This document shows positions 5,940 to 64,000 of a stretch of 64,000 nucleotides of DNA, one piece after another. Made by a program: the position numbers and the translations under genes. The number at the start of each line of letters is the position of its first letter. Position 1 is the first letter of the stretch. The notes below the pieces were generated by a model, which made no database searches, was not told where the DNA came from, and was given only the letters and a program-made list of their open reading frames with translations. The DNA is from Aequorivita sp. HC6-5 (GTDB taxonomy: Bacteria; Bacteroidota; Bacteroidia; Flavobacteriales; Flavobacteriaceae), in NCBI GenBank assembly GCA_905182755.1, contig CAJJCS010000002.1, forward strand, positions 517,001 through 581,000. The letters run 5' to 3'.

Positions 5940-8367
5940 TTAATAGTTCACGTATACATACCCAATGAGCGGGGTTGGCATTGATGGATCATTTAATAAC
6001 AGCACATAATAATAAGTGCCTACAGGAACCAGTTTTTTCTCATATAACAGTCCAGTATTAGGTATGGCATTCCAAAAACCCTGCGCATTTCCTCCTATGT
6101 AAATTAAAGTACCGTCTCTGGAATACATTTTTAGTTCAAAGTTTTCATAGATGTTTAATAACCCTGAAATTTCAAATACATCATTAATCGAATCCCTATT
6201 GGGAGAAAACCCTTGAGGCACAAAAGGTGGGCAGTTCTCTATGGTAATCCAAAAAGAACTTACAGCAAAGCAAACAGCCGTGTCTAGCCTTACAAAAATT
6301 TCTTGCTCAGCACTCAAACTTTGATAGCTTGAAGGATTTGTTATGGCAAAGCTATTAGATAGTGCATTTTCTAGAGAGGTGTAAAAACGTATAATATCAT
6401 CTGTATTACTGCTTATTAAATCATTTTGTAGGGTAAGATCAAAAACCGCGCTATTAAAACCTTCATTACATAACAGTAAATCTGGAAGGGCTGTTATGGG
6501 GTCTATGGTTAAAAAAGTTACTGGTAATGTAAAATGGTTGTTTGTCTCGTTGCGCTCTTCAACGATACCTTGGTTTACTCCAGTATCATCTACAGCAGCC
6601 AAAAAAGTAAAATTATTTGGTATTGAGGCGTCTATTTCAATTTCAACAAAACCATCCTGGCTGTCTCCAATGGCAATAATTTCTTGAGTTTGTGCTTGCA
6701 TTACAAGTTGCCCATCGATGTAAAATGCGATAGGAGTGTTACTGGGTAAAGGGCCAGTTCCAAGGGTGTTATAAACGGTGTATTGAACCCCTAGAGTTTC
6801 TTCTCTACAAGTGTTGAGAGGGCCGTTAATAACAATGGTCGCATCTGGAAGTGAGCAATCAAGTACCGCTATAGTAAAAGAATTTACAAGGTAACATAAG
6901 GCGTTGTCTGCCCTTATAAAAATCTCTTGCGGGTTTTGAAGTATTTGTATAATTTGTAGGGTTTTCAATAGCATTTTGACTTGCAACAGCATCTGCATTA
7001 GACTCATAAAAACTAAGCAAGGCCTGAGGATCTGCCTGGACAACTCCTTGGGTTAAATCAAAGTTTAGCGAGGGGATAACATCACAAATCTCAAGATCTT
7101 GTAATACAGTTTGCTCTGGTAGTTCTAGAAGGGTAATAGAGGCGGTGTCTTGGTTGTTGTCTTCTATGATTTCATACACCGTGCTAACTCCAGCTCCGTT
7201 GTCATCAACAAATACATTGAGCTGGAAATCTGCTCCAATTTCAATGGGTATGGTGAGTGTAATGGTATTGGTTTGTTGTCCTGAGATAGGTATTATATCG
7301 GTGGTTTGACTCTGGCCAACAAGGGTGGTATCCCCATAAAAGGCGATGGGTGTGCCAGGGGGAAGTGAATCTGTACAATTTAAGTTGTATACCGTATAGG
7401 TAATTTCTAGATCTCTATCTCCACAAATATCACCCCCTTGTACTGTATCTATACTTATAGTAGCGTCTGGCAATTGAGAATTTAATACCGTAATAATAGT
7501 ATTAATCATTACAAAGTCTTGCCCAGAGGTTAGGTCAATAACAGCGCTTGTATCTCCGGGGCTTATATTGTTTTCTATAGAATAAAAATCTATATCCATA
7601 TTATACAAAAGTTCATTTTGGGTAAAGCTGTTGGTGCCATTAAAAGCATTGTCTGCAGGGTTTAATGGAGGGTTGCTTATGATGTTTCCATTAATTTGTA
7701 GGGTTTCATTAACAGAGAGTGATTGGTCACCCTCCCAGGCTAAAAACCCAATTTTAGCTCCATCGTTGTCTAGTACATTTATGTTTGATAGATTAATTGT
7801 AAGATTAGTGTTGGTGGCAGAAACACTTTCCAAACCGTCAAAAACAGTAACCTGATTTAAAGGCAATGTGCTGTCTTGATAAATAACGGTAATTGCCCAT
7901 CCAGCAAAGTTTGTCGTGTTCTCACAATAAGGAGCAATACTATCTGTAAGGTCTAAATCTGCTAATGTGTATAAACTATTTCCAGTTGTTTGAACAAGCG
8001 AGGTTACATCTGCAAAAGCTGCAAAATAAACCAATCCATTACTGATTGTCTCTGAGAAGGTTCTTTGAGCAGTAATTTGCGCTCCGTTTAGTGTTACCTC
8101 AAAATCTCCAGTTCCAGAACCAGCCCAATACAAGTATGCAGCAATGAGTTGCTGGTCTGGTTGTAGTTCAAAGTTTGCACTGCTAGAGGTTAATATCTCA
8201 CATGGAGTTGGAGGCACAGCGCCTGTGTTTTCTCCAGTGTTTAGTGTGTTTCCAAATGCTAGGTAGTCATACTGGCCATTAAATTGTGCAAAAACGGCTA
8301 CTTCTTGTGCCACCAAAATCATTGGAGAGAACAACAAGAGTAAACAAAAAACAACAAGAGGTTTCAT
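5940..8367 (-). CDS. Secreted surface protein with T9SS type B (CHU_C) sorting domain, frameshifted at 6934-6937
   Basis: A signal peptide (MKPLVVFCLLLLFSPMILVAQ) starts the protein. The N-terminal part resembles the beta-rich adhesin-like regions of Bacteroidota surface proteins, followed by two or more repeated CARDB-like modules (segments with LPDATI, GTPIAFY or NTPIAFYIDGQ, and EERNETNNH). The last ~90 residues are a CHU_C/TIGR04131 domain (QGFSPNRDSINDVFEISG ... GYVYVNY), which directs export through the type IX system and attachment to the cell surface. The frame breaks at a run of four T on the plus strand (6934-6937); dropping one base joins both halves into 808 residues. No enzymatic domain is visible, so adhesion or gliding-related function is only an inference. 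Confidence 0.85.
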
Positions 8368-9828: not shown

Positions 9829-10420
9829 ATGATTTTACCCATTGTAGCCTACGGCGATCCTGTGTTACGAAAAGAATGTGAAGACATATCTAAGGCATAC
9901 CCTAATTTAGATGCCCTTCTAGAAAATATGTATGAAACCATGTACGGCGCCAGTGGAGTAGGTTTGGCAGCGCCACAAATTGGTTTGCCAATTCGTATAT
10001 TTTTGGTTGATGCAAGTCCTTTTGCTGATAAGGATCCTGATGGATGCTCAAGAATTAGCCCTGGTTGAAGGATTTAAAAAAACCTTCATTAATGCGACCA
10101 TACTAGAGGAGCAAGGCGAAGAGTTTGCTTTCAATGAAGGCTGTTTAAGTATTCCAGATGTACGTGAAGATGTATTAAGAAAGCCAGATATTACTATAGA
10201 GTATTATGATGAAAGCTTTACAAAGCACACCCAAGAGTATACCGGTATTATTGCAAGAATTATACAACATGAGTATGACCACATCGAAGGAATTTTATTT
10301 ACAGACAAACTTTCTTCCCTAAAAAAGAGAATACTAAAAGGCAGGTTAACTAACATTAGTAAAGGAAAAGCAAATGCAGATTACCGCATGCGTTTCCCTA
10401 ATGCTAAAAAGAAACGTTAA
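9829..10420 (+). CDS. def: Peptide deformylase, frameshifted at 10042-10043
   Basis: Peptide deformylase removes the formyl group from the N-terminal methionine of nascent proteins and is normally essential. All three active-site motifs are present: GVGLAAPQIG near residue 44, EGCLSIP near 105, and the metal-binding QHEYDH near 150. The frame breaks between them: at 10040-10044 the sequence reads gatggatgct, and removing one g restores a DDAQELALVEGF junction. The corrected length is 196 residues, which is normal. Because the gene is essential, the extra base is most likely a sequencing error. It follows ruvX by 6 bases. Confidence 0.92.
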
Positions 10421-19360: not shown

Positions 19361-19761
19361 TACATTATTAATTATACCCTTGATTTAAAAACAACCTCAG
19401 CCTTTAGCTTCTAAAAATGCGATTTTAATAATATCTTCGCATAATTATTTACTAATGTGCAAAATTTAGCCCCGATAGGCCTTATATGTTTAATAATTGA
19501 AAATTTGAACCAAGCTACCGCTAATTTTTGTTTTGATTAAACATAAAACACCTATACATTACTACATCAAATATCATAAAAACACGCTATTTTGATAAAT
19601 ATCGTTTTTCACTCCATAAAACATGGGTGCATAAGCTGTTTTGTTTTGTATACTCATTGTAGCACCATTAATTGTACTCAATACAAAAAATAAAGTATTT
19701 TGCATATCACGTTGGTTTTACAATCAATTAACCAAAATTAAACTCAAAAAGTAATTAAAGA
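19361..19761 (+). other. Non-coding region upstream of the glucan cluster
   Basis: This 401-base stretch has no convincing reading frame on either strand. It is AT-rich and must hold the promoter of the glucan cluster. The only promoter-like match I see is a weak TATTTTG at 19696-19702, one base short of the -7 consensus. I see no hairpin terminator after the TPR gene and no clear operator palindrome. Confidence 0.5.
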
Positions 19762-22700
19762 ATGACTCAAAATAAAACCATAAACATTGGTGCTCACTCA
19801 GCTCAGTTCGCAGATTTGAATGTTAAAGGCGAACAGATGAAAATTGACGGAGAGAGTTTTTATAAAATTTCCAATGTAAACGGTATGCGCCCTTTTTTCA
19901 TGAGTATCGTAAGCCATTCAAACCACTGGATGTTTATATCTAGTACAGGAGGTTTGTCTGCAGGTCGAAAAGACTGTGACTCAGCGCTTTTCCCATACTA
20001 TACCGATGATAAAATAACCGATTCTTTCGAAACCACTGGAAGTAAATCTATTTTTCTTGTTGAAAAGAACAGTCAAACATTTTTGTGGGAGCCCTTTTCC
20101 TCACGACACGTGTCGTTATATAAAATATCACGAAACCTTTACAAGAACGCCTTTGGTAACAAAGTGATATTTGAAGAAATTAACCACGACTTAGAAATCA
20201 GTTTCACTTATGAGTGGAACTCCACAGATCGTTATGGGTTTGTTAGAAAGTCTTTGCTGTCCAATACAGGGACCTCACAGGTTAAAATTCAATTTATTGA
20301 TGGGATTCAAAATGTATTACCCTCCGGCATTGAGCAAGCCCTTCAAAACAGCACGAGTAATCTGGTAGATGCTTACAAAAGAACCGAACTTGTAGAGGGG
20401 TCTTCACTTGCTGTTTTTGCATTGAGCGCCATTATCGTTGACAAAGCGGAACCCAGTGAGGCTTTAAAATCTAATATTGCCTGGTCTCTTGGACTTGACA
20501 ACCCAACGATTCTTTTATCTTCTTTGCAGCTAGATACTTTCAGAAGAGGGCAGCAAGTCTCGCAAGAAACGGATGTCAAAGCCGAAAAGGGAGCCTATTT
20601 TCTAAATTCAGAAGTAGCCCTAGCACCACAGCAATCAAAAGAGTGGTTGTTGGTGGCTGATGTCAATCAAAGCATCTCAGATGTGGTCTCTATTACATCC
20701 GAGATGAATACTATTTCAGATTTAAAATCGAAGATCCTTACCGATGTTGAGTTAGGTTCTGAACACCTTACCGAGCTTGTTGCGGCCTCTGACGGACTTC
20801 AAAAAACCGCAGATGGACTTCGTAACGTTCGTCACTTTTCAAATACCATGTTTAACATCATGCGTGGCGGAATTTTTGATGATAATTATCAAATCGAAAA
20901 AGAAGATTTCGTTTCTTACATCGAAAAACTAAACAAAAAAGTATACCGTCACAAAGAGGCTGTATTAAACGCCTTACCAGCACTTTTCAAACTCCAAGAC
21001 CTAAAGGCTTTATATCAAGACGATGCCGATAAAAACTTTAAACGTCTTTGCTGCGAATATTTGCCTTTAAAATTTAGCCGTCGCCATGGCGATCCAAGCC
21101 GTCCTTGGAACAAGTTCTCTATTAATACTAGAAACGAAAATGATGGCTCTAAAATATTAGATTATCAAGGAAACTGGCGTGATATTTTCCAAAACTGGGA
21201 AGCTTTAGCGCATTCCTATCCAGAGTTTATGGAAGGGATGATTCATAAGTTTTTAAACGCGACTACTTTTGAGGGCTACAACCCGTACCGTGTTACAAAG
21301 TATGGATTTGATTGGGAAACAATTGAGCCAGACAACCCGTGGTCTTACATTGGGTATTGGGGGGATCACCAAATCATATATTTACTTAAGTTTCTTGAGT
21401 TTATGGAAGCTTATTACCCAAATAAATTAGCAACCTATTTCTCTCAAGATTTGTTTGTCTATGCCAATGTTCCTTACAAGATAAAGCCCTACGAGTCTAT
21501 TTTGAAAGATCCAAAAAACACCATAGATTTTGATTTTGAAAAGGAAGAAAATATACAGTTCAAAAGGGACGAAATCGGGGTTGATGGTGCCTTACTTAGA
21601 GACACAACCGCCTTTATTTACAAGGTTAATTTTGTAGAGAAAATACTAGCTACCGTTCTGCAAAAATGTCAAACTTTATTCCAGAAGGGGGGATTTGGAT
21701 GAATACCCAACGCCCTGAGTGGAACGATGCAAACAATGCTCTTGTAGGAAATGGAGTCTCTATGGTGACTTTGTATTACTTAAGACGCTTTTTAAAATTC
21801 TTCAATAAAGTGTTGGATCAAGACACTACCAGTGAGTTTGAAATATCCAATGAGCTGTTAGAGTTCTTCAACAAAGTATCTCAAACCTTGGTAGCGCACA
21901 AACAATTGCTTGAAGGCCGTTTTACCGATGAAAACCGAAAGCAAGTCTTAGACGGCCTAGGGCAAGCAGCGAGTGACTACAGAACACAAATTTACGATCA
22001 AAAATTTTCAGGCTATAAAACAGCCGTTTCTAAGGCGTCCTTGTTAGAATTTACTAGCACTGCCCTTGATTACTTAGAGCACTCTATTGAAGCCAATAAA
22101 AGAGCTGATAGTTTATTTCATTCCTATAATTTAATGACCGTAACGGATCATAAGTCCGTTTCTATTTCCTCATTTACCTGAAATGTTAGAGGGGCAAGTA
22201 GCGGTATTGAGTTCTGGTTATTTATCCACTAAAGAGAGTTTAGATGTTTTAGACGGTCTTAAAAATAGTCCGTTATTCAGAGAAGATCAGTACAGTTATA
22301 TTTTATATCCAAACAAAGAACTTCCTAAGTTTGTTCATAAAAACACGATTGCAGCCCCAGATGTTACATCTTCTGAATTACTCAGTCAACTTATTGCAGA
22401 TGGGAATACCCAATTAATCAATCAAGACGGAAATGGCCATTACCACTTTAATGGTAGTTTTAATAATGCTGATTCAGTAAAGGTAGCCTTGAGTAGCCTT
22501 TCACAGTTGTATGCACCCCTTGTGGAGAAAGACTCTAAAAAGGTGCTTGCTATTTTTGAATCTGTATTTGACCATAAATCATTTACAGGAAGATCGGGTA
22601 CTTTCTTTGGATATGAAGGTTTAGGGTCTATTTACTGGCATATGGTTTCTAAGTTATTATTGGCGGTGTATGAGGTAACTCAAAAAGCACTTTCTGAATC

Positions 22701-23226
22701 AGAAGATAAAAAACATATAGGTCGATTGTACGATCATTATTTTGAGATTAATGCAGGAATTGGAGTTCATAAATCACCCGAGCTATATGGGGCGTTTCCT
22801 ACCGATGCCTACTCGCATACCCCTGGTGGTAAAGGCGCACAGCAACCAGGAATGACTGGACAAGTGAAGGAAGATGTCTTGAGTAGATTTGGAGAGTTAG
22901 GAGTAAAAGTACGTAATGGTGCTGTGGAATTTAACCCAGAGATACTAAGAGAGGATGAGTTTTTAACAACTAAAGAGGTGTTTAATTACATCAACCTAGC
23001 CAAAGAAAAGTGTCGTGTAGACCTTGAGGTAGGGTCTCTCGGTTTTACTTATTGTCAAGTGCCTGTAATTTATCAGAAAGCGACTCAGGCGGCTATTAAA
23101 GTATTTTTAACTGATGGCAGCGTATCTTCTTTTCAAGGGAAGTCTCTAGATGTTCAAACGAGCCAAATGCTCTTTAATAGAGGTGGAGAAATAGAGAAGT
23201 TAGTCATATCTGTTGTTAAAGCTTAA
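19762..23226 (+). CDS. Cytoplasmic beta-1,3-oligoglucan phosphorylase-like enzyme (GH149-type), frameshifted at about 21660 and 22170
   Basis: About 1154 residues after correction. It has no signal peptide, so it is cytoplasmic. The fold is that of the GH94/GH149/GH161 inverting phosphorylases: an N-terminal beta-sandwich (about 1-320) and an (alpha/alpha)6 barrel, with the catalytic-Asp-type motif RPEWNDANNALVGNG around residue 656. Length and its place among GH17, GH30 and a sugar symporter fit GH149, which phosphorolyses beta-1,3-glucan oligosaccharides to glucose-1-phosphate. GH94 or GH161 membership cannot be excluded by eye. A missing g near 21660 (tctg_caaaa) and an extra t at 22170 (tcct|cattta) break the frame; together they cancel out. 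Confidence 0.72.
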
Positions 23227-23227
23227 T

Positions 23228-24494
23228 ATGAAATATTCAAGACCCCTACTAAGACTCGTATTAATTTTTACTTTAGTTCTTGGTGTGGGGTCTTGTAAAG
23301 AAAGAAAAATGAATGAAAACCCTATAAATAAAAATAAATCAGCCGCTGAATTTTTAGGGCACCCTGAATATAGGGCGATTTCCTATGGGGGCTATCGAAC
23401 CTTAACAAGAGAGGATCAGCCTTCACTATCTCAGATTAAAGAAGATCTAAAAATTTTGTCGGCCCTAGGAATCAAAGTCATACGCACCTATAATTTACAG
23501 CTAGATCAAGCGCCAAATATTTTAAAAGCAATTCGGGCTTTAAAATCTGAGGAAGCTGGTTTTGAAATGTATGTGATGCTTGGGGCTTGGATAGATTGCC
23601 AAGGTGCTTGGCACAAAGCCAGCCCAATCATGATATAGAAGACCTAGAAAACAACACCTCAGAAATAGCCAAAGCAATTGCACTTGCAAACCAGTATCCT
23701 GAGATTGTAAAAATCATTGCTGTTGGAAACGAGGCTATGGTGCACTGGGCAACATCTTATTTTGTAAAACCTGCAGTAATTTTAAAATGGGTTAGCTATT
23801 TACAAACCCAAAAAACAAAAGGAATCTTCCTGAATCATTGTGGATTACGAGTTCAGATAATTTTGCGTCCTGGGGTGGAGGGGATGCGTCCTATCACAAC
23901 GAAGATTTAACCGCCTTAATTAAAGCGGTCGATTATATTTCAATACATACCTACCCATTCCACGATACGCACCATAATTCCAGTTTTTGGGTAGAGAGTC
24001 AAAATAACACCAGCCACCTGCAGGCCAAAGCCCGTATTGAACTTGCTATTCAAAGCGCGGTAGATTATGCCGTATCTCAGTACAAAGGCGTTGAAAGCTA
24101 TGTAGAGAGCCTTGGGGTTGAAAAGCCTATTCACATAGGAGAAACAGGATGGGCTACCGTATCAAGTGATTTATATGGGCCATTAGGGACTCAGGCCGCT
24201 GATCAATATAAGCAAGCGCTGTATTACCAAAAAATGGATGACTGGACCAAGGCCAACGGAGTTAGTTGCTTTTATTTTGAGGCTTTTGATGAACCTTGGA
24301 AAGATGCCGCTCATCCATTAGGGTCTGAAAATCATTTCGGACTTATTGATGTTGAGGGAACTCTTAAATATGCGCTTTGGGAGTCTTTTGATTTAGGAGT
24401 TTTTCAGGGATTAACTCGTGATGGAAACCCCCTTAAAAAATCCTTCAATGGGGAGTTTGAGAAGATGTTCAACACCGTTAAATTACCAAAATAA
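23228..24494 (+). CDS. GH17 family lipoprotein (beta-1,3-glucan-active), frameshifted at about 23626 and 23823
   Basis: GH17 enzymes hydrolyse or transglycosylate beta-1,3-glucans. The ATG at 23228 (MKYSRPLL) gives a lipoprotein signal with the lipobox Cys in GVGSCKE, so it acts at the envelope. The barrel contains the acid/base Glu in VGNEAMVHW (about residue 169) and the nucleophile Glu in IGETGWAT (about residue 306), plus the FEAFDEPWK end motif. Two single A deletions break the frame: agcccaatca at 23621-23630 should carry one more A, and so should ggaatc at 23821. Correction gives 422 residues. It starts 1 base after the phosphorylase stop, so the genes are tightly coupled. Confidence 0.82.
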
Positions 24495-24498
24495 AAAA

Positions 24499-25504
24499 AT
24501 GAAATATATATTAATACTCTTAGTTTTAATCCTTCCCTTTAGCTTTTTAGCATTTGAGGATACTGAGGTTGTTTCTGTCAAAGACAGGCAATTACTAATT
24601 AACCAGACGCCCTATTTTATCAAGGGAATTTGTTATAACCCCGTTAAAAAGGGGCGTGTTGAAAGAGATTTCACCAACATCGATCTTGACCTTGCTCTAA
24701 TGAATGAAGCGGGTATAAACACCATTCGTGTCTACAGCCCTATTGATGATGTTTCTGTTTTGGATAAGATAGCTGCTGCAGGGATTAAAGTAATTACAAG
24801 TTTTGGTTACAATCAAGACGGCTATTTTGATATCTTATCAGGGTCTTACTTAGACTATGTAAATAGCTATAAAAATCACAAAGCAATTTTATTGTGGGAG
24901 CTTGGCAATGAATATAACTACCATCCAGAGTGGTTTGATGGTGATATAAAAAACTGGTACACTAGTTTGCAAAATGCAGCCGATGCGATTCATCAAAATG
25001 ACTCCAATCATCCTGTTGCTACCGCCCATGGTGAGCTTCCAAATAGCGATGTATTAGCGGCTACAACCAATATCGATTTATGGGGTTTAAATGTGTATCG
25101 TTGGGATAATCCAGAAGCTATATTTAATGAGTGGTCACAGATAAGTGATAAGCCAATGTACCTCTCAGAGGCTGGTAGCGATAGTTACATGACCATTGCT
25201 AACTATGGATTTAGCTAAAGGAGATAACCAAGAGGCGCAAGCCCAGGCACTAACCAATATTTTGAATGACGTTTTTGAGTATAAAGCCATTAATACTGGG
25301 GTTTTAGTATTTTCTTTTACAGATGAGTTATGGAAAGCAGGAAACCCAGAAAGTCAAGATGTTGGTGGCTGGGCTCCAGAGAGTAGCGGAGTACCCTATG
25401 ACGGAACTGCTAACGAAGAATATTGGGGGGTTTTAGACGTTAATCGCCATAAGAAAAAGGCTTTTAATGTGCTTAAAAAGTTTTATAATACACTAGAAGA
25501 TTAA
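24499..25504 (+). CDS. Exported clan GH-A glycoside hydrolase (GH2 TIM-barrel / GH72- or GH158-like), frameshifted at 25213
   Basis: About 334 residues with a signal peptide (MKYILILLVLILPFSFLAF). It is a single TIM barrel: FIKGICYNPV near residue 39, the acid/base motif WELGNEYNYHPE near residue 135, GLNVYRWDNP near 200, and the nucleophile motif YLSEAGSDSY near 222. These are clan GH-A motifs, closest in appearance to GH2 C-terminal barrels and fungal-type GH72 glucanosyltransferases; GH158 is another option. I cannot settle the family. The frame breaks at tttagctaaa (25210-25219), where dropping one a restores YGFAKGDNQEA. It sits 4 bases after the GH17 gene, so a role on beta-glucan is likely. 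Confidence 0.68.
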
Positions 25505-25505
25505 T

Positions 25506-27011
25506 ATGATCATTATGCGAAAAACAATACTGATTTACCCTGTTTTTTTACTTATTATAGCCTTGTTTTTAGCCTCGTGTGCCTCAAAAAAAGAAGTGAT
25601 GATAGAAGTTTATGAAACATCTGCTGCGGGCCATAAATTGACCCCATTAGAGATCTTTTCAAAGGGGGAGATCGTTTCTGAAATTACTATAAACCCACAA
25701 GAAAAGCGACAAGTGATTACAGGATTTGGTGGCGCCTTTACCGAGTCTTCCGCCTCTGTTTTAAATCAATTAAGTCCTGAAAAAAAGGACCAAATAATCA
25801 ATGCCTATTTTTCTGAGAAAGGAGCTGCCTATTCTTTGACACGAACACACATGAATTCATGTGATTTCTCTTTAAGTAACTATTCGTATACAGAGGTAGA
25901 AGACGACACCCAACTTGAGCACTTTTCTATAGCCCATGACAAAGACGATCTGATTCCAATGATAAAGGCAGCTCAAGCAGCTTCCAAGGACGGATTCAAA
26001 CTTTTTGCATCGCCATGGACTGCCGCTCCGTGGATGAAAGATAATAATTCTTGGGTTGGCGGAAAATTAAAGCCAGAGTATTACCAAACATGGGCGTTAT
26101 TTTTCTCTAAATATGCCGATGCCTACAAAGCTCAGGGCATCGATATATGGGGTTTTACAGTTGAAAACGAACCCATGGGAAATGGAAATAACTGGGAAAG
26201 CATGGTTTTTTCTCCCGAGGAGATGACCCATTTCGTACAAAATTATCTTGGCCCTACCCTCGAGGCCAAAGGACAGCAAGACCTGGTTATATTAGGTTTT
26301 GATCAAAATAGAGGCGATCTTAAACAGTGGGTTGATGTAATGTTTAAAGACCAGGCGAGTTCAAAATATTTTGACGGAACGGCTGTTCATTGGTATGAAA
26401 GTACCTATGACTATTTCCCTAAGGAGTTGGAGTATGCACACTATAAAGCGCCCAATAAATATTTAATTCAGTCAGAGGCATGTATAGACTCTGAGGTACC
26501 AGCCTGGAAGGACGATGCTTGGTACTGGTCTAAAGAAGCCACTGACTGGGGTTATGATTGGCGTGAGGCTGAAAAAAAGTACTTACACCCTAAATACGCT
26601 CCTGTTAATCGCTATGCCAGAGATATTATTGGCTGTCTAAATAACTGGGTTGACGGTTGGGTTGATTGGAATATGGTTCTTGACAGACAAGGAGGGCCTA
26701 ACTGGGTTAAAAATTGGTGTGTAGCGCCAATAATTGTAGACCCAGAACAAGACGAAGTTTACCTTACCCCGCTGTACTATGTCATGTCTCATTTTAGCAA
26801 ATTTATTAGGCCAGGAGCAGTAGTTATTGGCGCAGAATCTAGTGATACAGATTTAATGGTGACAGCCGCTAAAAATCCAGATGGATCAATTGCTGTTGTG
26901 ATTTTCAACGAAGGTATCAAGCCCAAATCTTTTGAATTAAAAACCGCTATGACAACCAAACAAATTTTGATTAGCCCACAGGCTATTCAAACAATATTGA
27001 TTACTAACTAA
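25506..27011 (+). CDS. GH30 family lipoprotein (glucosylceramidase-type; likely exo-beta-1,6-glucanase)
   Basis: A 501-residue exported lipoprotein (lipobox LASC, Cys24; an alternative ATG at 25515 would keep the same signal). The GH30 barrel starts QVITGFGGAFTESSA, with the acid/base Glu in TVENEPMG (residue 222) and the nucleophile Glu in QSEACID (residue 324), and ends in the beta-sandwich with PLYYVMSHFSKFIRPGA. In laminarin clusters GH30 enzymes remove beta-1,6-linked glucose branches; this is inferred from context. The gene is intact, unlike its neighbours. It starts 1 base after the previous stop. Confidence 0.88.
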   Translation: MIIMRKTILIYPVFLLIIALFLASCASKKEVMIEVYETSAAGHKLTPLEIFSKGEIVSEITINPQEKRQVITGFGGAFTESSASVLNQLSPEKKDQIINAYFSEKGAAYSLTRTHMNSCDFSLSNYSYTEVEDDTQLEHFSIAHDKDDLIPMIKAAQAASKDGFKLFASPWTAAPWMKDNNSWVGGKLKPEYYQTWALFFSKYADAYKAQGIDIWGFTVENEPMGNGNNWESMVFSPEEMTHFVQNYLGPTLEAKGQQDLVILGFDQNRGDLKQWVDVMFKDQASSKYFDGTAVHWYESTYDYFPKELEYAHYKAPNKYLIQSEACIDSEVPAWKDDAWYWSKEATDWGYDWREAEKKYLHPKYAPVNRYARDIIGCLNNWVDGWVDWNMVLDRQGGPNWVKNWCVAPIIVDPEQDEVYLTPLYYVMSHFSKFIRPGAVVIGAESSDTDLMVTAAKNPDGSIAVVIFNEGIKPKSFELKTAMTTKQILISPQAIQTILITN

Positions 27012-27022
27012 AAAATAAGAAT

Positions 27023-28474
27023 ATGAATAGTTCAATTAAAACCAACAAAGTCCCAATGGGCCAGAAGATTGCTTTTGGCTTTGGTATGTTGGCCAATCAA
27101 ATGTTTCCAGCCATTCTGGGAATATTTATGATCGTTTTGGTGGAGGACCTTGGGTTTTCTGGATGGATGTGGTCTTTGGTGTTTCTTTTTCCAAGAATTT
27201 TTGATGCTTTTCTAGATCCTATTATGGGATTTATATCAGACAACACAAAATCTAGATGGGGAAGGCGTCGCCAATACGTGATTATTGGAGGGGTAATTAT
27301 GGGGCTTGCCTATATTTTTATGTGGCAACTTTATAAGATTGATGGTGTAGAATATAATTTTTGGTATTTCTTTTTATGGTCTTTGGTGTTTTATGTAGGT
27401 CTTACCATTTTTAGTGTTCCTTATGTGGCTATGGGTTATGAAATGAGCGATGATTTTCACGAAAGAACAAATATCATGGCTATCTCCCAATGGATTGGTC
27501 AATGGGCATGGGTAATTGCTCCTTTGTTTTGGATTATTATGTATGACCAAAACTGGTTTGAATCTGCAGATGTAGCCGTTCGTGAACTAGCCATTTGGGT
27601 TGCCATACCATGTGCCCTTTGTGCTATTGTACCTGCTATATTTATAAAGAGCAAATCTACTTTAGAGGAAGATTATGAGCCTTTAAATACTGCCAACATT
27701 GGAAACAGTCTAAAAAAGATTTTTGAAAGTTTTTCTGAGGCTTTTAAAATAAAAGAGTTTAGAAAATTATGCGGAGCAACATTTTTAATATTCAATGCTT
27801 TTAACACCGTTGCAGCACTTACCTTTTTTGTGATTGTTTACAAACTATTTAACGGAGACGCCGGTGCAAGTGGTATTTGGGTATCTATGTTTGGATGTTT
27901 GGGCGCTTTAGGCACCACATTTATTGTGATACCTACGGTGGCTTGGATGTCAAAAAAAATGGGTAAGAAAAAAGCTTTTATGATATCTCAGTCTATCTCA
28001 CTTGTAGGATACATATTGTTATACTTTTTATTTATTCCAGGAAAACCATGGATGTATATCATAGCCTTGCCGTTTTTCTCTTTTGGGATTGGAAGTTTAT
28101 TTACCATTATGATGTCTATGACAGCAGATGTGATTGATATTGATGAAATTAATACAGGAAAACGAAGAGAAGGTATTTTTGGAGCCATCTACTGGTGGAT
28201 GGTAAAGGTTGGTTTTGGTATTGCAGGCGCCCTTAGTGGAGTGATTATAACCGTAGTAGGTTTTAATCCTGATCTTGCTGCCATAGATCAGCAATCTGCA
28301 GTAGAAGGCTTGCATGCGTTTTTCTGCTTTTTCCCAATGGGAGGAACCATCTTGGCAATGTTTGTAATGCGCAATTACAGCATTACTGAGGAAAAATCTA
28401 AAGAAATTTCGGCCATTTTGGCCAAAAGGAGGAGTGAAACAAAAAAAGACACAACTATATTAAAAAGTAATTAA
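27023..28474 (+). CDS. MFS sugar:cation symporter (GPH family)
   Basis: A 483-residue inner-membrane transporter with about twelve membrane segments. The GPH signature lies between helices 2 and 3: FDAFLDPIMGFISDNT then KSRWGRRRQY. This family imports oligosaccharides or glycosides with Na+ or H+. It is the only transporter in the cluster, so it should carry the products of the exported hydrolases (glucose, gentiobiose or laminari-oligosaccharides) to the cytoplasmic phosphorylase. There is an 11-base gap from GH30, and its stop overlaps the next start (TAATG), which implies translational coupling. Confidence 0.9.
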   Translation: MNSSIKTNKVPMGQKIAFGFGMLANQMFPAILGIFMIVLVEDLGFSGWMWSLVFLFPRIFDAFLDPIMGFISDNTKSRWGRRRQYVIIGGVIMGLAYIFMWQLYKIDGVEYNFWYFFLWSLVFYVGLTIFSVPYVAMGYEMSDDFHERTNIMAISQWIGQWAWVIAPLFWIIMYDQNWFESADVAVRELAIWVAIPCALCAIVPAIFIKSKSTLEEDYEPLNTANIGNSLKKIFESFSEAFKIKEFRKLCGATFLIFNAFNTVAALTFFVIVYKLFNGDAGASGIWVSMFGCLGALGTTFIVIPTVAWMSKKMGKKKAFMISQSISLVGYILLYFLFIPGKPWMYIIALPFFSFGIGSLFTIMMSMTADVIDIDEINTGKRREGIFGAIYWWMVKVGFGIAGALSGVIITVVGFNPDLAAIDQQSAVEGLHAFFCFFPMGGTILAMFVMRNYSITEEKSKEISAILAKRRSETKKDTTILKSN

Positions 28475-29361
28475 TGTCATTCAGAAAAGAAAAAAAGCAC
28501 TCTTTAATAGGTGTAAATTATTCAGAGTATAACCCTGAGCAACTTCAAAATCTTTCCAGCACGGTTCTTGAAAATCGGCATGCATGGTTTGTGTTTTAGT
28601 CCTTATGGGGAAGGGCAAAAGCCTGGCGATCTAATAACGGAGGCTCAAATTAGAAGACGGCTTGAAATTATAGCCCCTTACACCAAATGGATACGAAGTT
28701 TTTCATGCACTGAGGGGAATGATATGATTCCTAAACTGGCCAAAGAGTATGGACTGAAAACGCTAGTTGGTGCTTGGCTTGGAGATGATAAAATCATAAA
28801 TGACAAAGAAATGAAAGCCCTTATCCAGCTCAGTAAAGATGGGTTTGTAGATATAGCTGCTGTTGGTAATGAAGTGATGTATAGGGGAGACCTTTCAGAA
28901 GACTGAACTTCTAGATCATATCCAAGAGTTTAAAAAAGCCGTACCCAATGTTGAAGTTGGCTATGTAGATGCCTATTATGAATTTACTGATCGACCAAAA
29001 ATTACAGAAGCCTGTGATGTTATTTTAGCTAATTGTTATCCCATACTGGGAAGGCCTGTCATCTAGACTATTCTTTACTTTATATGAAGCAGATGTACCA
29101 AGAAGCACTGCGTGCCGGGAAAGGTAAAAAAGTAATTATTACTGAAACTGGATGGCCAAGTCAAGGAAGTGATTTAGGGGTCTCCCATCCTTCATATGAC
29201 AATGCCCTTAAGTATTTTATCAATGCTCAACTCTGGTCTGACCAAGATCAAATAGACATGTTTTATTTCTCTTCTTTTGATGAATCTTGGAAAGTGGGCA
29301 CCGAGGGAGATGTGGGTGCTTTTGGGGGCTTTGGGATAAAAATGAAAAATTAAAATTTTAA
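28474..29361 (+). CDS. Cytoplasmic GH17-like protein (second GH17), frameshifted at five sites
   Basis: About 294 residues, without signal peptide, started by the ATG overlapping the MFS stop. It keeps the catalytic pair of GH17: AVGNEVMYRG (Glu about 133) and ITETGWPSQG (Glu about 223). Breaks: extra a in 28571-28574, extra t at 28904, extra a at 29043, extra c at 29055-29056, and one missing t near 29308 (gctttt_ggggg). Correcting all five yields one protein ending DKNEKLKF at 29361. Being cytoplasmic, it may hydrolyse or rearrange imported beta-1,3-oligoglucans together with the phosphorylase. So many indels raise the alternative that the gene is decaying. Confidence 0.7.
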
Positions 29362-29374
29362 AAAATATATTTAG

Positions 29375-30334
29375 ATGACCATTATGAATTATTCTGAAGT
29401 TTTCTCTATTCCAGCAGCCTCAGCAGTTTGTTATTCAGGCTACCGAGCATGGCCAAGTGCCTGGGGTGACATATCCTACTTACAGTCAGGTTAAAGAAGA
29501 CTTACTTATAGTTCAACAACATTGGACCTACATTCGCCTGTACAGTTGCGACGCCCATTCAAAAACTGTTTTAGAGGTTATCAAAAATGAAAAATTAGAC
29601 CTTAAAGTCATGCTTGGGGCTTATATTATTGCTGAAGAAAACAACCATAATTGCCCTTGGGGTGGAGGGGTCATTCTGAAGAAACCTTACAAAAGAATAG
29701 AGTAAATAACCAAATAGAAATTAATAAGCTTATTGAACTTGCCAATACATACGCTTCTATTATTTTTAGCCTTTCGGTTGGTAATGAGGCCTGTGTTGAA
29801 TGGACAGATCATATGGTACCAGTTGCAAGGTTATTGCGTATGTAAATCAGCTTAAAGAAGCGACGAAACAACCCGTTACATTTTGTGAAAATTATGTGCC
29901 TTGGTTAGATAAATTAGCCCCTTTAGTAGAGGCTCGTTGATTTTATATCTATTCATACCTATCCGCTTTGGGAGTATAAAACCATTGATGAGGCCATTGC
30001 ATTTACAAAGCAAAATTACCAGGCTGTTGCCAAGAGGTATCCTCATAAATTAGTGGTCATCACAGAAGCAGGCTGGGCCTCAACCTCAAACGGCAAAGGT
30101 ATTCCAAGAGAGCATGCCAATCCTGTTTTTCAAAAAATTTACTACCAACAGCTTAGTCGTTGGTGTGAAGAGGATTGTATTCTTACGTTTATTTTTGAAG
30201 CTTTTGATGAGCCTTGGAAGGGATCTGATGATCCAGATGAGCCTGAAAAACACTGGGGTTTGTATTATGAAAATCGAAGCCCTAAACTAGCACTTAAAAA
30301 AAAGACAGCTTACAAAGCTGAACCTACAACTTAA
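29375..30334 (+). CDS. Cytoplasmic GH17-like protein (third GH17), frameshifted at four sites
   Basis: About 319 residues (ATG at 29375; 29384 is possible), no signal peptide. Catalytic motifs: SVGNEACVEW (Glu about 138) and ITEAGWAST (Glu about 231), with the IFEAFDEPWKG ending seen also in the first GH17. Breaks: one extra base in cgagcatgg (29443-29451), a missing t after gggg at 29671, a missing g near 29829, and an extra c at 29935; these cancel out. It follows the second GH17 by 13 bases and is the last gene of the cluster. A tandem pair of leaderless GH17 enzymes next to a phosphorylase suggests intracellular beta-1,3-oligoglucan processing. Confidence 0.7.
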
Positions 30335-32086: not shown

Positions 32087-33101
32087 TTATTTACTATATC
32101 TATGAAGGGTAAAGGTCATGGTTGCCAGTAAAAAGAAAGCCGTAACTTGATGTAATACTCCCAGCCAAACAGGAACAAACAATACTAAGGTAAGCACTCC
32201 TAGCACAAATTGTACCCCAACTAGAATTAAAAGTAAGTTGATACCCTTTTGTTGTAGTGCTGTGGTTTTATTTTTCCTAGCCTTAAACCAAATAAAACCG
32301 ATAATACCAACAACAATATAGGCTAGGTATCGGTGTATAAATTGAACACCGCTTTTGCCTTCTATAAAGTTTCTCCAAAGTGGTTCTTGTTCTGTGGTTA
32401 CACTTTGGTGTATAAGCTCTCCGTCATTCATTAGTGGCCAGTGGTTATGAATCCAACCAGCATCTAGACCGGCAACAAAAGCGCCCCAAATGATTTGAAT
32501 CACTAATATGACAAGCCCCACTCTAATAAGATTTCTAAACCTAGTGTTTATTTGTTTTTTTGAAGGAAAAATTAAATCTAAGGCCACCCAAAAAGTATAC
32601 GCAAATGTCAAAAATGCGGTTGTTAAGTGCATGGCGAGTCTGTAATGGCTTACATCTGGTTTATCTACAAGGCCACTTTTCACCATAAACCAACCCAAAA
32701 ATCCTTGAAAGCCACCCATAGTTAGCAAAATCAAACATTTTTTAATAGTGGATTTTGTGAGTTGTTTTCTAAGCAAGAAATATACAAATGGAATCACAAA
32801 AACCAATCCTATAAAACGGCCTATTACACGGTGTATCCATTCCCAGAAATAAATATCTTTAAACTCATCTATAGTCATGTTATAGTTAAGTTTTTGATAT
32901 TCTGGGTATTGTTTGTATAGGTCGAAAGGCTTCATTCCATTGCAAGGCATTTGTTGGAGGAATGGTACCAGAAATTAATTTGTAATTTGAGATAGACAAG
33001 CCAGAATGTGTAAGGCGGGTAATACCTCCTACAATTACCATAATAAAAATAAGTGTACATCCCGTTAGGAGCCAGTATATCACTTTTTTATTGTCTTTCA
33101 T
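32087..33101 (-). CDS. Heme A synthase, COX15/CtaA family, frameshifted at 32924
   Basis: COX15/CtaA oxidises heme O to heme A for aa3-type cytochrome oxidase in the cytoplasmic membrane. The first helix carries [16 protein letters not shown], and paired conserved His residues follow ([35 protein letters not shown]). About eight membrane segments are visible. The frame breaks at gtcgaaaggc (32921-32930): one extra g at 32924 separates NEAF from [10 protein letters not shown]. Without it the protein is 337 residues, the usual length. Its start overlaps the cca stop by four bases (ATGA). Confidence 0.9.
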
Positions 33102-34521
33102 ATAGTTTTTTTTAATCCTAATTTAGCTCCTTTTTTTAACATAAAAGCTTTTGCTGGCCCATACTCATTGGGTATTTCACCCTCCAGTATAGCCTCTTTT
33201 ATAGCATCTTTGATTTGTCCAATCTCACGGCAGGGAGATAATCCAAAAGTTTTCATAATCTCTTGCCCACTTACTGGAGGCTGGAAATTACGAATGCTAT
33301 CACGCTTCTCTACCTCTATAATTTTATCACGTACAATCTTGAAATTATCATGGTATGTTTTAAATTTTGCGGTGTTTTTAGTGGTGATATCTGCCTCGCA
33401 AAGTGTCATTAAATCTTCTACACTTTCTCCAGCATCAAATATTAAACGCCGCACGGCGCTATCTGTTACATCGCTTGCCAGTACAATTGGGCGAGAGCTC
33501 ATTAATACCATTTTCTGAACAAACTTCATCTTGTCATTAAGTGGCATCTTGAGTCTTTTAAAGAGTGTAAATACCATTTTGGCTCCAACAAATTCATGGG
33601 CATGAAACGTCCAGCCAATTTTTTTATCAAAGCGTTTTGTGGGAGCTTTACCAATATCATGTAATAATGCTGCCCAGCGAAGCCAGAGATTATCTGTGGT
33701 TTTTGCAATATTATCAACCACCTCTAGGGTGTGCCAAAAGTTGTCTTTATGGCGTTGCCCTTCTTTTTGGTCGATACCTTGAAGGGCCACAAGCTCTGGA
33801 AGTATCAAAGGAAGTAGTGTTGTTTTATGCAGTAATGAAAACCCTTTAGAGGGTTTTTGGGAGGCTATATTTTATGTAACTCATCTACAATGCGCTCTTT
33901 AGAGATGATGTTTATTCTCTGGGCATTTTTAGTTATGGCTTCCAATGAATCTTTTTCAATAATAAAATCTAATTGTGTTGCAAATCTTAGCGCTCGCATC
34001 ATTCTAAGTGGATCATCGCTATAGGTAATCTCTGGATCTAAAGGCGTGCGTATTATTTTGGCCTCTATATCTGCAATACCATTAAAAGGGTCTAAAAGCG
34101 CTCCAAAATTAGCTTCCCCTAGACTAAGTGCCAATGCATTTATAGTAAAGTCTCTTCGGTTTTGATCATCTTGAAGGGTCCCGTTTTCTACAACTGGATT
34201 TCTACTGTCTTGTTGGTAGGATTCTTTGCGTGCTCCTACAAACTCTAATTCAATACCACCTGTTTTTAGCATGGCAGTGCCATAGTTTTTAAACACCGTT
34301 ACATTAGGCTTGCCTGGCAGCAATTTTGAGACTTCTTTTGCAAGTGCAATTCCTGAGCCAACACACACAATGTCTATGTCTTTTGGATTTCCTCTTTTTA
34401 ATATATAATCGCGCACAAAACCGCCAATAACATAGGCGTCCAAACCAAGGTTTGATGCGGCCTGTGAAACGGTTTTAAATATAGGATTTTGTAATGCCTT
34501 TGAATGTGTTGTTATCCCCAC
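33098..34521 (-). CDS. cca: CCA tRNA nucleotidyltransferase with HD domain, frameshifted near 33865
   Basis: This enzyme adds the 3'-terminal CCA to tRNAs. The N-terminal nucleotidyltransferase half has GGFVRDYIL, the catalytic [16 protein letters not shown] and the [12 protein letters not shown] motif; the C-terminal half carries an HD phosphohydrolase motif (LHDIGKAPT). The frame breaks near 33862-33868, just after DELHKI, where one base is missing; restoring it gives 474 residues with the usual family continuation [16 protein letters not shown] perfect -7 element lies 26 bases upstream of the ATG. The gene is essential in most bacteria lacking encoded CCA ends, so the break is probably a sequencing error. 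Confidence 0.92.
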
Positions 34522-45246: not shown

Positions 45247-46053
45247 ATGAAAAAAGTTGTTTTAATTACAGGAGGGTCTTCAGGAATAGGAAAGGCCATT
45301 GGAGAATACTTGCTTGCAAGGAATTATAAGGTCTACGGAACATCAAGAAATCCTGATCGCTTTAAGATAGACTTCCCTTTTCCATTATTACAACTAGATG
45401 TAACCAATATACAGAGTATTAAAGCCTGTGTTGCATTATTACTTGAAAAAGAGGCAAGACTAGATGTATTGATTAATAATGCTGGAGTTGGAATTACTGG
45501 CCCTTTGGAAGAAACACCAATAGAGGAGATCCAAAAGGCATTTGCAACCAATTTGTATGGACCCATACAAATAACCAATGAGGTATTGCCTACAATGCGA
45601 AATCAAAAGAGTGGCCATATTATAAATATTACTTCGATTGCAGGGTATATGGGCTTGCCCTATAGAGGCGTTTATAGTGCAACCAAAGCAGCTCTAGAGA
45701 TTACTACAGAAGCCTACAGAATGGAATTAATGCAATTTGGCATACAGATGGCTAATGTAGCCCCTGGAGATTTTGCTACCAATATTGCCGCAGGGAGATA
45801 CCATGCTCCTGTAAGAGAGAACTCTCCCTATAAAAAAGCATACGGAGCTACCTTAAAAATGATGGATGCAGATGTGGATAGTGGTCAAAATCCAATACAA
45901 ATGGCAGAGGCTGTTTATCATATCATCAACAAAAAAACACCCAAAGTGAGATACAAAGTGGGTGCTTTTTTACAGAAATTTTCTATTGTTTTAAAGAAGG
46001 TGTTGCCTTCAAAAATGTATGAGAAAATACTTATGAATCATTACAAACTCTAA
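45247..46053 (+). CDS. Short-chain dehydrogenase/reductase (SDR)
   Basis: A 268-residue NAD(P)-dependent SDR. The ATG at 45247 (MKKVVLITGG) is preferred over the GTG at 45241. The cofactor motif TGGSSGIGKAIGE is at residues 8-20, NNAGVG near 79, and the catalytic YxxxK in YRGVYSATKAALE near 148. The substrate is not known. Its stop codon (46051-46053) overlaps the true stop of the converging nitronate monooxygenase gene by two bases. Confidence 0.88.
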   Translation: MKKVVLITGGSSGIGKAIGEYLLARNYKVYGTSRNPDRFKIDFPFPLLQLDVTNIQSIKACVALLLEKEARLDVLINNAGVGITGPLEETPIEEIQKAFATNLYGPIQITNEVLPTMRNQKSGHIINITSIAGYMGLPYRGVYSATKAALEITTEAYRMELMQFGIQMANVAPGDFATNIAAGRYHAPVRENSPYKKAYGATLKMMDADVDSGQNPIQMAEAVYHIINKKTPKVRYKVGAFLQKFSIVLKKVLPSKMYEKILMNHYKL

Positions 46054-47017
46054 AGGTATTTTTTTGCTATATCTTGTTGTTTGGAAATTGCGTCGCCAAA
46101 TTCTGTTTTCATTCGCTTGACCAACTCTTTTATGGGTAGGGAGTCTTCAATGCAGTTACTCCTTGACCTGCAGACCAAATTGTCTTCCATGCTTTGGCCT
46201 CTGTATCCATTTCTTTTCCGAAATCTATTTTACCTTTGCTTTCTATTTGTTCTTGTGTGATACCCGCTTTTTCTAGACTCTTACTCAAAAAGTTTGCGCT
46301 CACTCCACTAATAGCGGCTGTGTAGGTAACATCTTTTGTTTGAGAGTCAATAATCATGTCTCTATATTCTTTATTAGCGCTGCTTTCTGTAGTGTTTATA
46401 AAGCGGGTACCCATGTAGGCTAAATCTGCTCCCATTTGCATAGCACTTGCTATATCTTGACCTGTGCTTAACCCGCCAGATAAAAGTATAAAGCCATCAA
46501 AAATATTTTTAATTTCATTTATAAAAGGAACTGGATGAAGGGTTCCTGCGTGTCCACCTGCACCTGCGCACACTAAAATTAAACCATCAACACCAGCCTC
46601 AATTGCTTTCTCTGCATGACGCCTTTTAATAACATCATGAAAAACCAAACCACCATAACTGTGCACGGCATCAACCACAAGGCTAATTGCTCCTAAAGAG
46701 GTTATAATTAATGGTACTTTGTGTTTTACACATACTTGCATGTCTGGCTCTACTCTTGGGTTACTGAAATGAACAATAAGATTAACACCAAAAGGAGCGG
46801 CTTTTTTACCTGTTTGTTTTTCCCAGGCTGCTAGTTCTGTTTTTATTTGCACTACCCATTGCTCGAAACCTTCGGTTGTACGTTGGTTTAATGCCGGGAA
46901 AGTACCTACAATACCATTTTTACATGCTTCAATAACAAGTTCTGGCCCTGAGATTAAAAACATTGGTGCCGCTACTAAAGGCAAGCTGAGGTTTTGTGTG
47001 AATTGATTTTTATCCAT
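46050..47017 (-). CDS. Nitronate monooxygenase-type FMN enzyme, frameshifted near 46156
   Basis: This FMN-dependent TIM-barrel enzyme belongs to the nitronate monooxygenase/2-nitropropane dioxygenase family, which detoxifies nitronates. Motifs include LVAAPMFLISGPELV near residue 14, LVCAGAGGHAG near 157 and LSGGLSTGQDIASAMQMGADLAYMGTRF near 190. As read, the protein stops early after QGVTALKTPYP. Inserting one base at 46156-46157 (tt should be ttt) opens a continuation NCIEDSLPIKELVKRMKTEF...KKYL to a stop at 46050, giving 322 residues and a family-like C-terminus. It follows lptF/G by 8 bases. Confidence 0.85.
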
Positions 47018-63078: not shown

Positions 63079-64000
63079 ATGCGTATACATAACATTGTTT
63101 TTTTTCTTTTTTGTTTTTGCACTACAACAACTCTTTCACAAGAGCTTCCTCCTATAACAAATTATTCTACGGAGCTTTACAAGGCAGGAACACAGAACTG
63201 GTCTATCACAGAATCTTCTGACAACTTTATATATGTTGCTAATAATGAAGGACTTCTAGAGTATAATGGGTCTTATTGGTTGTTGCATCCCTCTCCTAAT
63301 AATACAATTGTACGTTCTGTTTGTGCTGTGGGAAATAAAATTTATAGCGGTAGTTATATGGAATTTGGTTATTGGCAGCCAGGTTTAGATGGTATACAAA
63401 AGTACAACTCGCTTACTACAACATTAAATATTAATCTTATCGAAGATGAACAGTTTTGGAGTATCACTCCTTATAACAAATGGATCTTGTTCCAGTCTTT
63501 GAGCAGAATATATATATACAACACAGAAGATAGCACCGTTAAAGTCATTGATTCAGACAATACGATACAAAAGCTATTTAAGGTGGGTCAAGAAATTTAT
63601 TTTTTTGTTATAAATAGAGGCTTGTTTACTATTGAAAATGGAATTAAAAAGAAATTATTTGACGCAAAAGAATTCAATAATGATATTGTTGTACAAATCT
63701 TGTCTGTAAACAACAAAACACTTGCTGTTACTCAAAATAATGGTGTCTTTCATTTGGACAACACAAGTGTTAAGCCTTGGCCAATTTCTGTTACTACGGA
63801 TATTAAGCGGGCTAGTATATATACAGCACTTGCCCTTAAAGATGGAACCATATTACTAGGTACTATTGGTAGTGGTATTATTCATCTATCAGCCACCGGA
63901 GAACAGCTTTTTAATATTAACAGATTTAATGGTCTTGGAGATAATACCGCCTTATCTCTCTATGAAGATCATAGTAACAATCTTTGGGTTGGTCTAGATA
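63079..64000 (+). CDS. Two-component-regulator propeller sensor/transcription factor (3' end cut by window)
   Basis: The ATG at 63079 opens a frame that runs off the window (307 codons). After a signal peptide (MRIHNIVFFLFCF...LSQ) come repeated regulator-propeller segments: VANNEGLLEYNGSYW, SGSYMEFGYW and, near the end, YEDHSNNLWVGLD. In Flavobacteria such proteins end with a triple-tyrosine (Y_Y_Y) domain, a membrane helix and a LuxR-type HTH, forming a one-protein periplasmic sensor and regulator. The output domain lies outside the window, so a histidine kinase version cannot be excluded. Confidence 0.8.
   Translation, partial: MRIHNIVFFLFCFCTTTTLSQELPPITNYSTELYKAGTQNWSITESSDNFIYVANNEGLLEYNGSYWLLHPSPNNTIVRSVCAVGNKIYSGSYMEFGYWQPGLDGIQKYNSLTTTLNINLIEDEQFWSITPYNKWILFQSLSRIYIYNTEDSTVKVIDSDNTIQKLFKVGQEIYFFVINRGLFTIENGIKKKLFDAKEFNNDIVVQILSVNNKTLAVTQNNGVFHLDNTSVKPWPISVTTDIKRASIYTALALKDGTILLGTIGSGIIHLSATGEQLFNINRFNGLGDNTALSLYEDHSNNLWVGLD

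Follow-up and report, generated by a model that had tools for sequence, protein, structure and literature searches.

A beta-1,3-glucan gene cluster of Aequorivita sp. HC6-5 and its probable SusC/SusD partner 33 kb downstream

The window analysed here is a stretch of 64,000 nucleotides from Aequorivita sp. HC6-5 (contig CAJJCS010000002.1, C2, positions 517001-581000), whose own genome (G000) comprises 1.89 Mb in 7 contigs and is 77.5% complete. It holds a cluster of seven genes for beta-1,3-glucan breakdown, and this text concerns the cluster and its relation to a distant SusC/SusD locus. As described in an earlier note on this DNA, the seven genes point in one direction and are tightly packed, in the order GH149, GH17, GH-A, GH30, symporter, GH17, GH17 (GH, glycoside hydrolase family). 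The note's gaps or overlaps of 1-13 bases hold for the first spacings (1, -4 (an overlap), 7, 11, and -1 bases in relative G001:C156, where the genes are intact) and fail for the last pair, which lies about 30 bases apart in the window. The stop codon of the symporter overlaps the start of the next gene (TAATG). G, L, and C numbers denote genomes, loci of the comparison collection, and contigs, respectively; G001 and G008 are near relatives from the same genus, and G008 is the metagenome-assembled genome (MAG) AB_MB380, with G008:C5 being the same sequence as its contig CALSSW010000005.1. Leader peptides, or their absence, were judged by eye from the N-termini.

19550..19569, + strand: candidate operator ACCTATACATTACTACATCA, beginning 212 bases before the GH149 start codon, with a 14-base core common to the SusC promoter of the same genome and to regulator and SusC promoters of other genera
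19762..23226, + strand: leaderless GH149 beta-1,3-glucan phosphorylase, 2 frame breaks (NF058639, PDB 6hq6)
23228..24494, + strand: exported GH17 (lipoprotein by eye), ortholog of Formosa 6fcg, 3 frame breaks (family read on the intact G001 copy)
24499..25504, + strand: exported single-domain clan GH-A enzyme, 1 frame break (Pfam, active-site alignment, fold model)
25506..27011, + strand: exported GH30 (lipoprotein by eye), intact (PF02055, PF17189)
27023..28474, + strand: symporter of the GPH/MFS_2 family, intact (PF13347)
28474..29353, + strand: first leaderless GH17, closest to beta-1,3-glucanosyltransferases, 3 frame breaks (family read on the L148 copy)
29384..30334, + strand: second leaderless GH17, 4 frame breaks (family read on the G001:C293 copy)
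63079..64000, + strand: start of a SusR-like regulator gene running beyond the window end (aligned G008 ortholog; families read on G008)

The first gene is securely assignable by its sequence to GH149. When neighbouring pieces are joined in frame, it scores 1511.2 bits against NF058639 (curated cut-off 1150; single pieces 996, 517, and 236), and the protein matches PDB 6hq6. This hidden Markov model (HMM) placement lies inside GH94/149/161 and agrees with the leaderless GH149-type phosphorylase named in the earlier note. The three exported hydrolases likewise found Pfam and PDB matches. The exported GH17 aligns with the solved Formosa GH17 6fcg, which we take to be FbGH17A, over residues 9-425 (E 2e-162), and the GH30 reaches 275.9 bits for PF02055, above the gathering score, with a further match to PF17189 and with glucosylceramidases as its PDB matches. 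For PF00332 (gathering score 28.2), the relatives' GH17 copies score 35.3 (G001), 43.2 (L148), and 30.2 bits (G001:C293), which confirms both leaderless GH17 proteins; on the broken window sequence, the C-terminal piece of the exported GH17 gives 29.6 bits and a piece of the first leaderless GH17 no score. The reading of the transporter as a GPH symporter stands as well, with 216.1 bits for MFS_2 PF13347 against a cut-off of 27. Its 189.6 bits for TIGR00792 fall below the curated cut-off of 231.35 and mark it as a relative of that curated subfamily, not as placed in it.

The similarity of the first leaderless GH17 to solved beta-1,3-glucanosyltransferases, seen with the L148 copy, would also suit storage, in which a reversed GH149 and a glucanosyltransferase-like GH17 would make or reshape a beta-1,3-glucan inside the cell. 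Such a role was raised for MlGH17B in a Muricauda paper (PMC13188888), and the phosphorylase reaction is reversible (PMC5827456). We nevertheless hold storage to be very improbable here: the operon also contains exported hydrolases and an importer, AB_MB380 is without both leaderless GH17 genes yet keeps GH149 and the symporter, and laminarin induces related polysaccharide utilization loci (PULs) in Formosa (PMC6246565).

As assembled, only the GH30 and symporter genes are uninterrupted. The earlier note makes no mention of 13 one-base frame breaks in the other five, of which one in the exported GH17 merely shifts the stop position and one in the first leaderless GH17 was located from the frame map alone. 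The five broken genes are open in G001, where the only interruptions, in GH149 and the first leaderless GH17, are ends of contigs. Window and G001 share 95.4% identity, and each of the eight indels between them across 8.8 kb is one base long, with no length divisible by three. The ratio of nonsynonymous to synonymous substitution rates (dN/dS) between the two lies at 0.025-0.18 in the six genes covered (all but the second leaderless GH17), and the one in-register stop counted in this alignment, in the exported GH17, is taken to be the displaced gene end, so that no true in-register stop is left. With G008 as guide, breaks were also found in genes read as peptide deformylase and CCA-adding enzyme, both likely essential. 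Because relatives are intact, dN/dS is low, the indels are single bases, and unrelated genes are broken too, the 13 breaks are best read as consensus or assembly errors; a pseudogene reading of the locus was rejected on dN/dS, indel type, and the breaks elsewhere. Decay of the operon, with real breaks and laminarin use being lost, would fit the break density (13 in the locus of about 10.6 kb, in five of seven genes, versus 6 in the remaining genes matched to G008 as far as window 63 kb) and gene loss in relatives, as AB_MB380 has lost its GH17 genes with stubs left and G004 is without GH30 and the leaderless GH17 pair. Set against the selection and indel evidence, we find decay scarcely credible. 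As a guess, the denser breaks may stem from lower read depth over accessory genes. Outside the locus, the breaks relative to G008 fall at window 5943-8367, 9829-10417, 32090-34272, 46053-47017, and 52043-52542.

The earlier note had also reported no SusC/SusD, GH16, or regulator gene. Inside 19762-30334, indeed no SusC/SusD pair, GH16, or regulator was found, and by the definition given in PMC10108472 the locus is therefore a carbohydrate-active enzyme (CAZyme) cluster and not a PUL. Beyond these coordinates the statement fails, since a regulator begins at window 63079 and SusC, SusD, and GH16 lie past the window end. With G008 as guide, this part of the window and the 19 kb beyond it (L027) were found to contain a regulator, SusC, SusD, a PKD protein, GH16, and GH3, and also two proteins with secretion tails, phosphofructokinase, GAPDH, and glucose-6-phosphate isomerase; the families of this far PUL were read from G008 orthologs, and its position is supported by synteny. 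The regulator starts 33 kb from the end of the GH149 operon, on the same contig and strand, and the nearest SusC start lies about 36 kb downstream of the operon. In its G008 ortholog, the regulator has Reg_prop and GerE (a LuxR-type helix-turn-helix, HTH) above their cut-offs and Y_Y_Y below. Matches to SusD in the own genome lie at C2:587167 and C4:254826, those to GH16 at C2:590317-590875 (two pieces) and C7:20657. SusC/SusD together with GH16 and GH3 has been reported as the shortest laminarin PUL variant, for Candidatus Prosiliicoccus (PMC6794258). The search of the genome for a laminarin PUL with SusC/D, proposed in the earlier note, thus returned one, and because this SusC/SusD-GH16-GH3 locus was located on the same contig, the idea that the cluster works downstream of another uptake system gains support.

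The cluster is the enzyme half of the "variant 1" or "variant B" laminarin PUL, a known kind of locus already published for the nearest relative; what is new is the candidate operator common to the GH149 operon and the SusC promoter. PULs of this type were described in the marine Flavobacteriia Formosa, Polaribacter, and Muricauda (PMC6246565, PMC6298971, PMC13188888) with GH17, GH30, MFS (major facilitator superfamily), and GH17 in the same order, usually with GH149, and the exported GH17 of the window is an ortholog of the solved Formosa enzyme. Unlike them, the window locus has no adjoining SusC/SusD/GH16, bears the frame breaks in its assembly, and encodes MFS and GH17 as separate overlapping genes instead of the reported MFS-GH17 fusion. 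AB_MB380 was described as Candidatus Prosiliicoccus, with a "GH149-GH0-GH30_1-GH17" variant 1 laminarin PUL that is the most expressed of its three and with a second, "GH16_3-GH3" PUL; the same paper describes another MAG with a variant 1 laminarin PUL that lacks susCD (PMC10108472). AB_MB380 has the operon at the same place and the same far SusC/SusD/GH16/GH3 locus. Its published PUL lists GH17, whereas the deposited contig has only an exported GH17 stub and has lost the leaderless GH17 pair (stubs at G008:C5 376491-376808 and 380782-380871, L031); when G008 was searched with the exported GH17, the stub was the sole match. CAZyme clusters with GH149, GH17, GH30, and a transporter but no susCD pair were reported in 2018 (PMC5827456). 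They differ in that here the partner SusC/SusD locus of the genome and a shared candidate operator were located.

GH149 occurs in 56 of 149 Flavobacteriaceae genomes. For 55 GH149 loci (L045 and L054-L056, which belong to other families, and G095, G102, and G151 being excluded), the upstream view contains SusC/SusD in 28 and GH16 in 49, and downstream lie MFS (51), GH17 (50), GH30 (42), and the GH-A gene (15). SusC, SusD, GH16, PKD, and regulator labels in relatives come from similarity or from HMMs built on G008 and relatives, not from Pfam. The 27 of 55 loci with no SusC/SusD in the upstream view are an upper bound, because these labels likely miss some, and two of the 27 (G005, G012) have SusC downstream. 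The view in the earlier note that absence of SusC/SusD is unusual is not supported, given that only about half of the loci have the pair in the upstream view and that precedents have been published (PMC5827456, PMC10108472). Six of the 55 loci have neither SusC/SusD nor GH16 nor a regulator upstream; they belong to four of the five genomes of at most 1.9 Mb (G002, G084, G087, G184) and to two of the 50 others (G088, G132), G002, G088, and G184 being weak cases with less than 5 kb upstream in view. A SusD homolog was found in 11 of 11 tested genomes, and in four of them with a detached cassette the best SusD identity is 96% (G002), 48% (G084), 62% (G087), and 71% (G184). In other genera, the same cassette directly follows SusC-SusD-PKD-GH16.

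A second set consists of 80 named loci found via the GH-A gene, the best 80 of its relatives. Of these, 48 show a complete GH149 and 2.5 kb or more of upstream sequence; among the 48, 12 have no SusC, SusD, GH16, PKD, or regulator upstream ("detached") and 36 are embedded. Three detached loci (L165, L200, L210) have other cassette genes upstream, and all twelve are titled MAG or uncultured. Six same-genus genomes have GH149. GH-A and symporter genes adjoin it in five (window, G001, G002, G004, G008), and the sixth, G005, has the symporter and is without this GH-A gene. In G004 (L147 5610-8780), a gene of 1056 residues, read as a tricorn-like peptidase, stands in place of the leaderless GH17 pair.

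Comparison of the sequences upstream of GH149 and of SusC revealed a common block, which in G008 is identical across 14 bases and in the window genome nearly so; the total number of 14-mers common to the two regions lies within the shuffle range. The 14-mer ACATTACYACAWCA occurs exactly at four places in the 1.89-Mb own genome, with 0.11 expected, and these lie before the GH149 operon, SusC, a unit with pyruvate kinase, and a secreted protein. The SusC site recurs in G008, G001, G002, G003, and G010, and the pyruvate kinase site in G008, G001, G002, and G004. Across genera, the site stands 191-244 bases before SusC in 8 of 16 promoters at one mismatch or fewer, against 0 of 16 for the reversed control (G008 is among the 16; 5 of 21 SusC genes were left out for short upstream sequence). 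Polaribacter aestuariivivens (L174) has the site before SusC as well. Of 28 spacers that follow the regulator gene, 14 contain the site when two mismatches are tolerated, against none for the control; in part these are the same SusC promoters. A longer form, an exact 16-mer, has 25 sites in 22 of the 149 Flavobacteriaceae genomes (reversed control 8), and 15 of the 25 lie within 20 kb of GH149. The gene that follows is SusC at 10 sites, the GH2-like first gene of a GH149 cluster at 5, a secreted protein (by eye) at 6, two of which overlap before one gene, and another gene at 1; at the remaining 3, one being the own SusC, no gene was resolved in the 3-kb piece. Before GH149 itself, the 20-mer was found at up to four mismatches in 5 of 62 named loci (control 0), with 0-2 mismatches in L146, L148, and L149 and 3-4 in L188 and L212. 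These five are all detached (5/12 versus 0/36 embedded; Fisher 0.0005) and amount to about two lineages. Embedded loci are expected to have no operator before GH149, because the gene there lies inside the PUL operon.

Matches carry information only if they are exact or nearly exact and lie at promoter distance. At one mismatch, the 14-mer shows no excess over the reversed control in most of 11 genomes, and a 17-mer at up to two mismatches shows no clear excess. Upstream of relatives' GH149, the 14-mer at up to one mismatch was found in 0 of 59 cases, the detached L033, L077, L085, and L104 included. In the open-access literature, no relevant paper turned up for either a laminarin operator or the letters of the motif, subscription papers being outside that scope.

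A regulator beside SusC and a common site before the target operons, the features expected of a SusR-like regulon, are both present. SusR-like regulons of Bacteroides (PMC3878776) similarly combine a regulator beside SusC, one regulator with several operons, and a repeated site; here the site looks like two adjoining 11-base units, and the regulator has a LuxR-type HTH. The pattern suggests one regulon split over two loci, in which the regulator probably reads the candidate operator before both GH149 and SusC. Locally, the operon has no regulator gene, as first noted, but its candidate operator is the one also present in the distant SusC promoter.

With good confidence, we consider that the cluster supplies the periplasmic and cytoplasmic part of a laminarin system and that the outer-membrane part sits about 33 kb downstream, with the same candidate operator before both units, which would be induced together. 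At the far locus, GH16 would cut laminarin at the cell surface and SusC/SusD would import the pieces. In the periplasm, GH30 would take off beta-1,6 branches, the exported GH17 would cut the debranched chain, and the GH-A enzyme would trim further. The symporter may then carry short beta-1,3-oligosaccharides into the cytoplasm, where GH149 would release glucose 1-phosphate and the two leaderless GH17 enzymes would hydrolyse or rearrange the remainder. The SusR-like regulator probably reads the operator at both units, so that the separated halves would still be co-induced. The activities and their order are modelled on characterised relatives, the protein locations and the symporter substrate are predictions, and the saving of ATP by cytoplasmic phosphorolysis is presumed from the GH149 family. 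Separation from SusC/SusD looks like relocation within one system and not like a new strategy.

Several observations weigh against this split system. As the far PUL has its own GH3, the two loci could operate independently. Bacteroidota commonly have SusD homologs, and the 48% match in G084 may not be a laminarin SusD. The pattern was derived from two of the four exact sites in G000, which leaves two independent ones, and five of the 25 16-mer sites had already been seen before the 16-mer was chosen. At one mismatch, the 14-mer has 12 matches in G000 against 11 for the reversed control. Seven of the twelve detached loci, including same-genus G002 (L170), have no site before GH149, and the four detached loci without the 14-mer count against a general rule. 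The cluster could instead be self-sufficient and act on short or periplasmic beta-glucans that enter via porins, independently of SusC/SusD. That no such pair lies inside the cluster or in the upstream view of up to 27 of the 55 loci would fit this, as would the Type I GH149 clusters of Proteobacteria reported without an outer-membrane transporter (PMC5827456). We judge self-sufficiency unlikely, however, as all tested genomes keep a SusD homolog, the operon carries a SusC-type candidate operator, and an exported GH17 with GH30 fits oligosaccharides derived from a polymer.

Beyond this genome, we lean slightly towards a beta-glucan regulon shared by Flavobacteriaceae, in which adjoining 11-base units (TTACC-N3-ACA; core ACATTACYACAACATT) would be read by the SusR-like regulator with LuxR-type HTH beside SusC; in some small-genome pelagic lineages, the detached cassette would have its own operator copy, with pyruvate kinase on the same switch. 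Laminarin is an algal storage sugar and among the largest sugar pools in the sea. In a relative that dominates blooms, the counterpart operon is expressed more than any other laminarin gene set, and a shared regulon, if true, would speak against the proposal of largely unregulated PULs in bloom specialists (PMC10108472). Linking a detached CAZyme cluster to its SusC/SusD partner through a predicted operator would allow regulon assignment from sequence and would test whether streamlined bloom bacteria run unregulated PULs. Its position before the pyruvate kinase unit would link glucan sensing with glycolysis.

In five same-genus genomes, the candidate operator stands 99-100 bases before the first gene of that unit (L268 6099, L270 2445, L272 3433, L274 2597, L275 2584). 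The same site as for SusC and GH149 also precedes a protein of 1534 residues with a Por secretion tail (L271 1312-6068; L269 from 2258), and proteins beginning MMKKIT follow it in G105, G106, G159, and G175, with a similar protein in G151.

The clan GH-A enzyme has 334 residues in a single domain (G001 copy), and the genome collection contains confirmed relatives at 251 places. Among the best 80 loci, GH149 is in view in 71 and the symporter in 70. E138 (LGNE) and E224 (LSEAG) are invariant in 31 of 31 sequences and are presumed to form the catalytic pair. The fold model is a TIM barrel (pLDDT, a model confidence score, 86.6) with Z 27-29 to GH2 and GH157 and with GH158 near as well; by their PDB titles, GH157 and GH158 structures contain laminari-oligosaccharides. 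Pfam scores are 30.7 for GH2_C (cut-off 21) and 26.0 for GH72 (25.9), and the best PDB profile match is GH158 (E 2e-10). All 998 aligned chains of the fold search have Z of at least 8, which names the clan, singles out no family or substrate, and excludes no family either. By alignment and model, the predicted TIM barrel, an Asn-Glu acid/base, and a second Glu place the enzyme in clan GH-A. As a conserved protein usually found with GH149, it is a ready target for assays. In L173, from a genome titled Pontiellaceae, a family outside Bacteroidota, GH-A, symporter, GH17, GH30, and GH149 lie together, which hints at horizontal transfer of the cassette.

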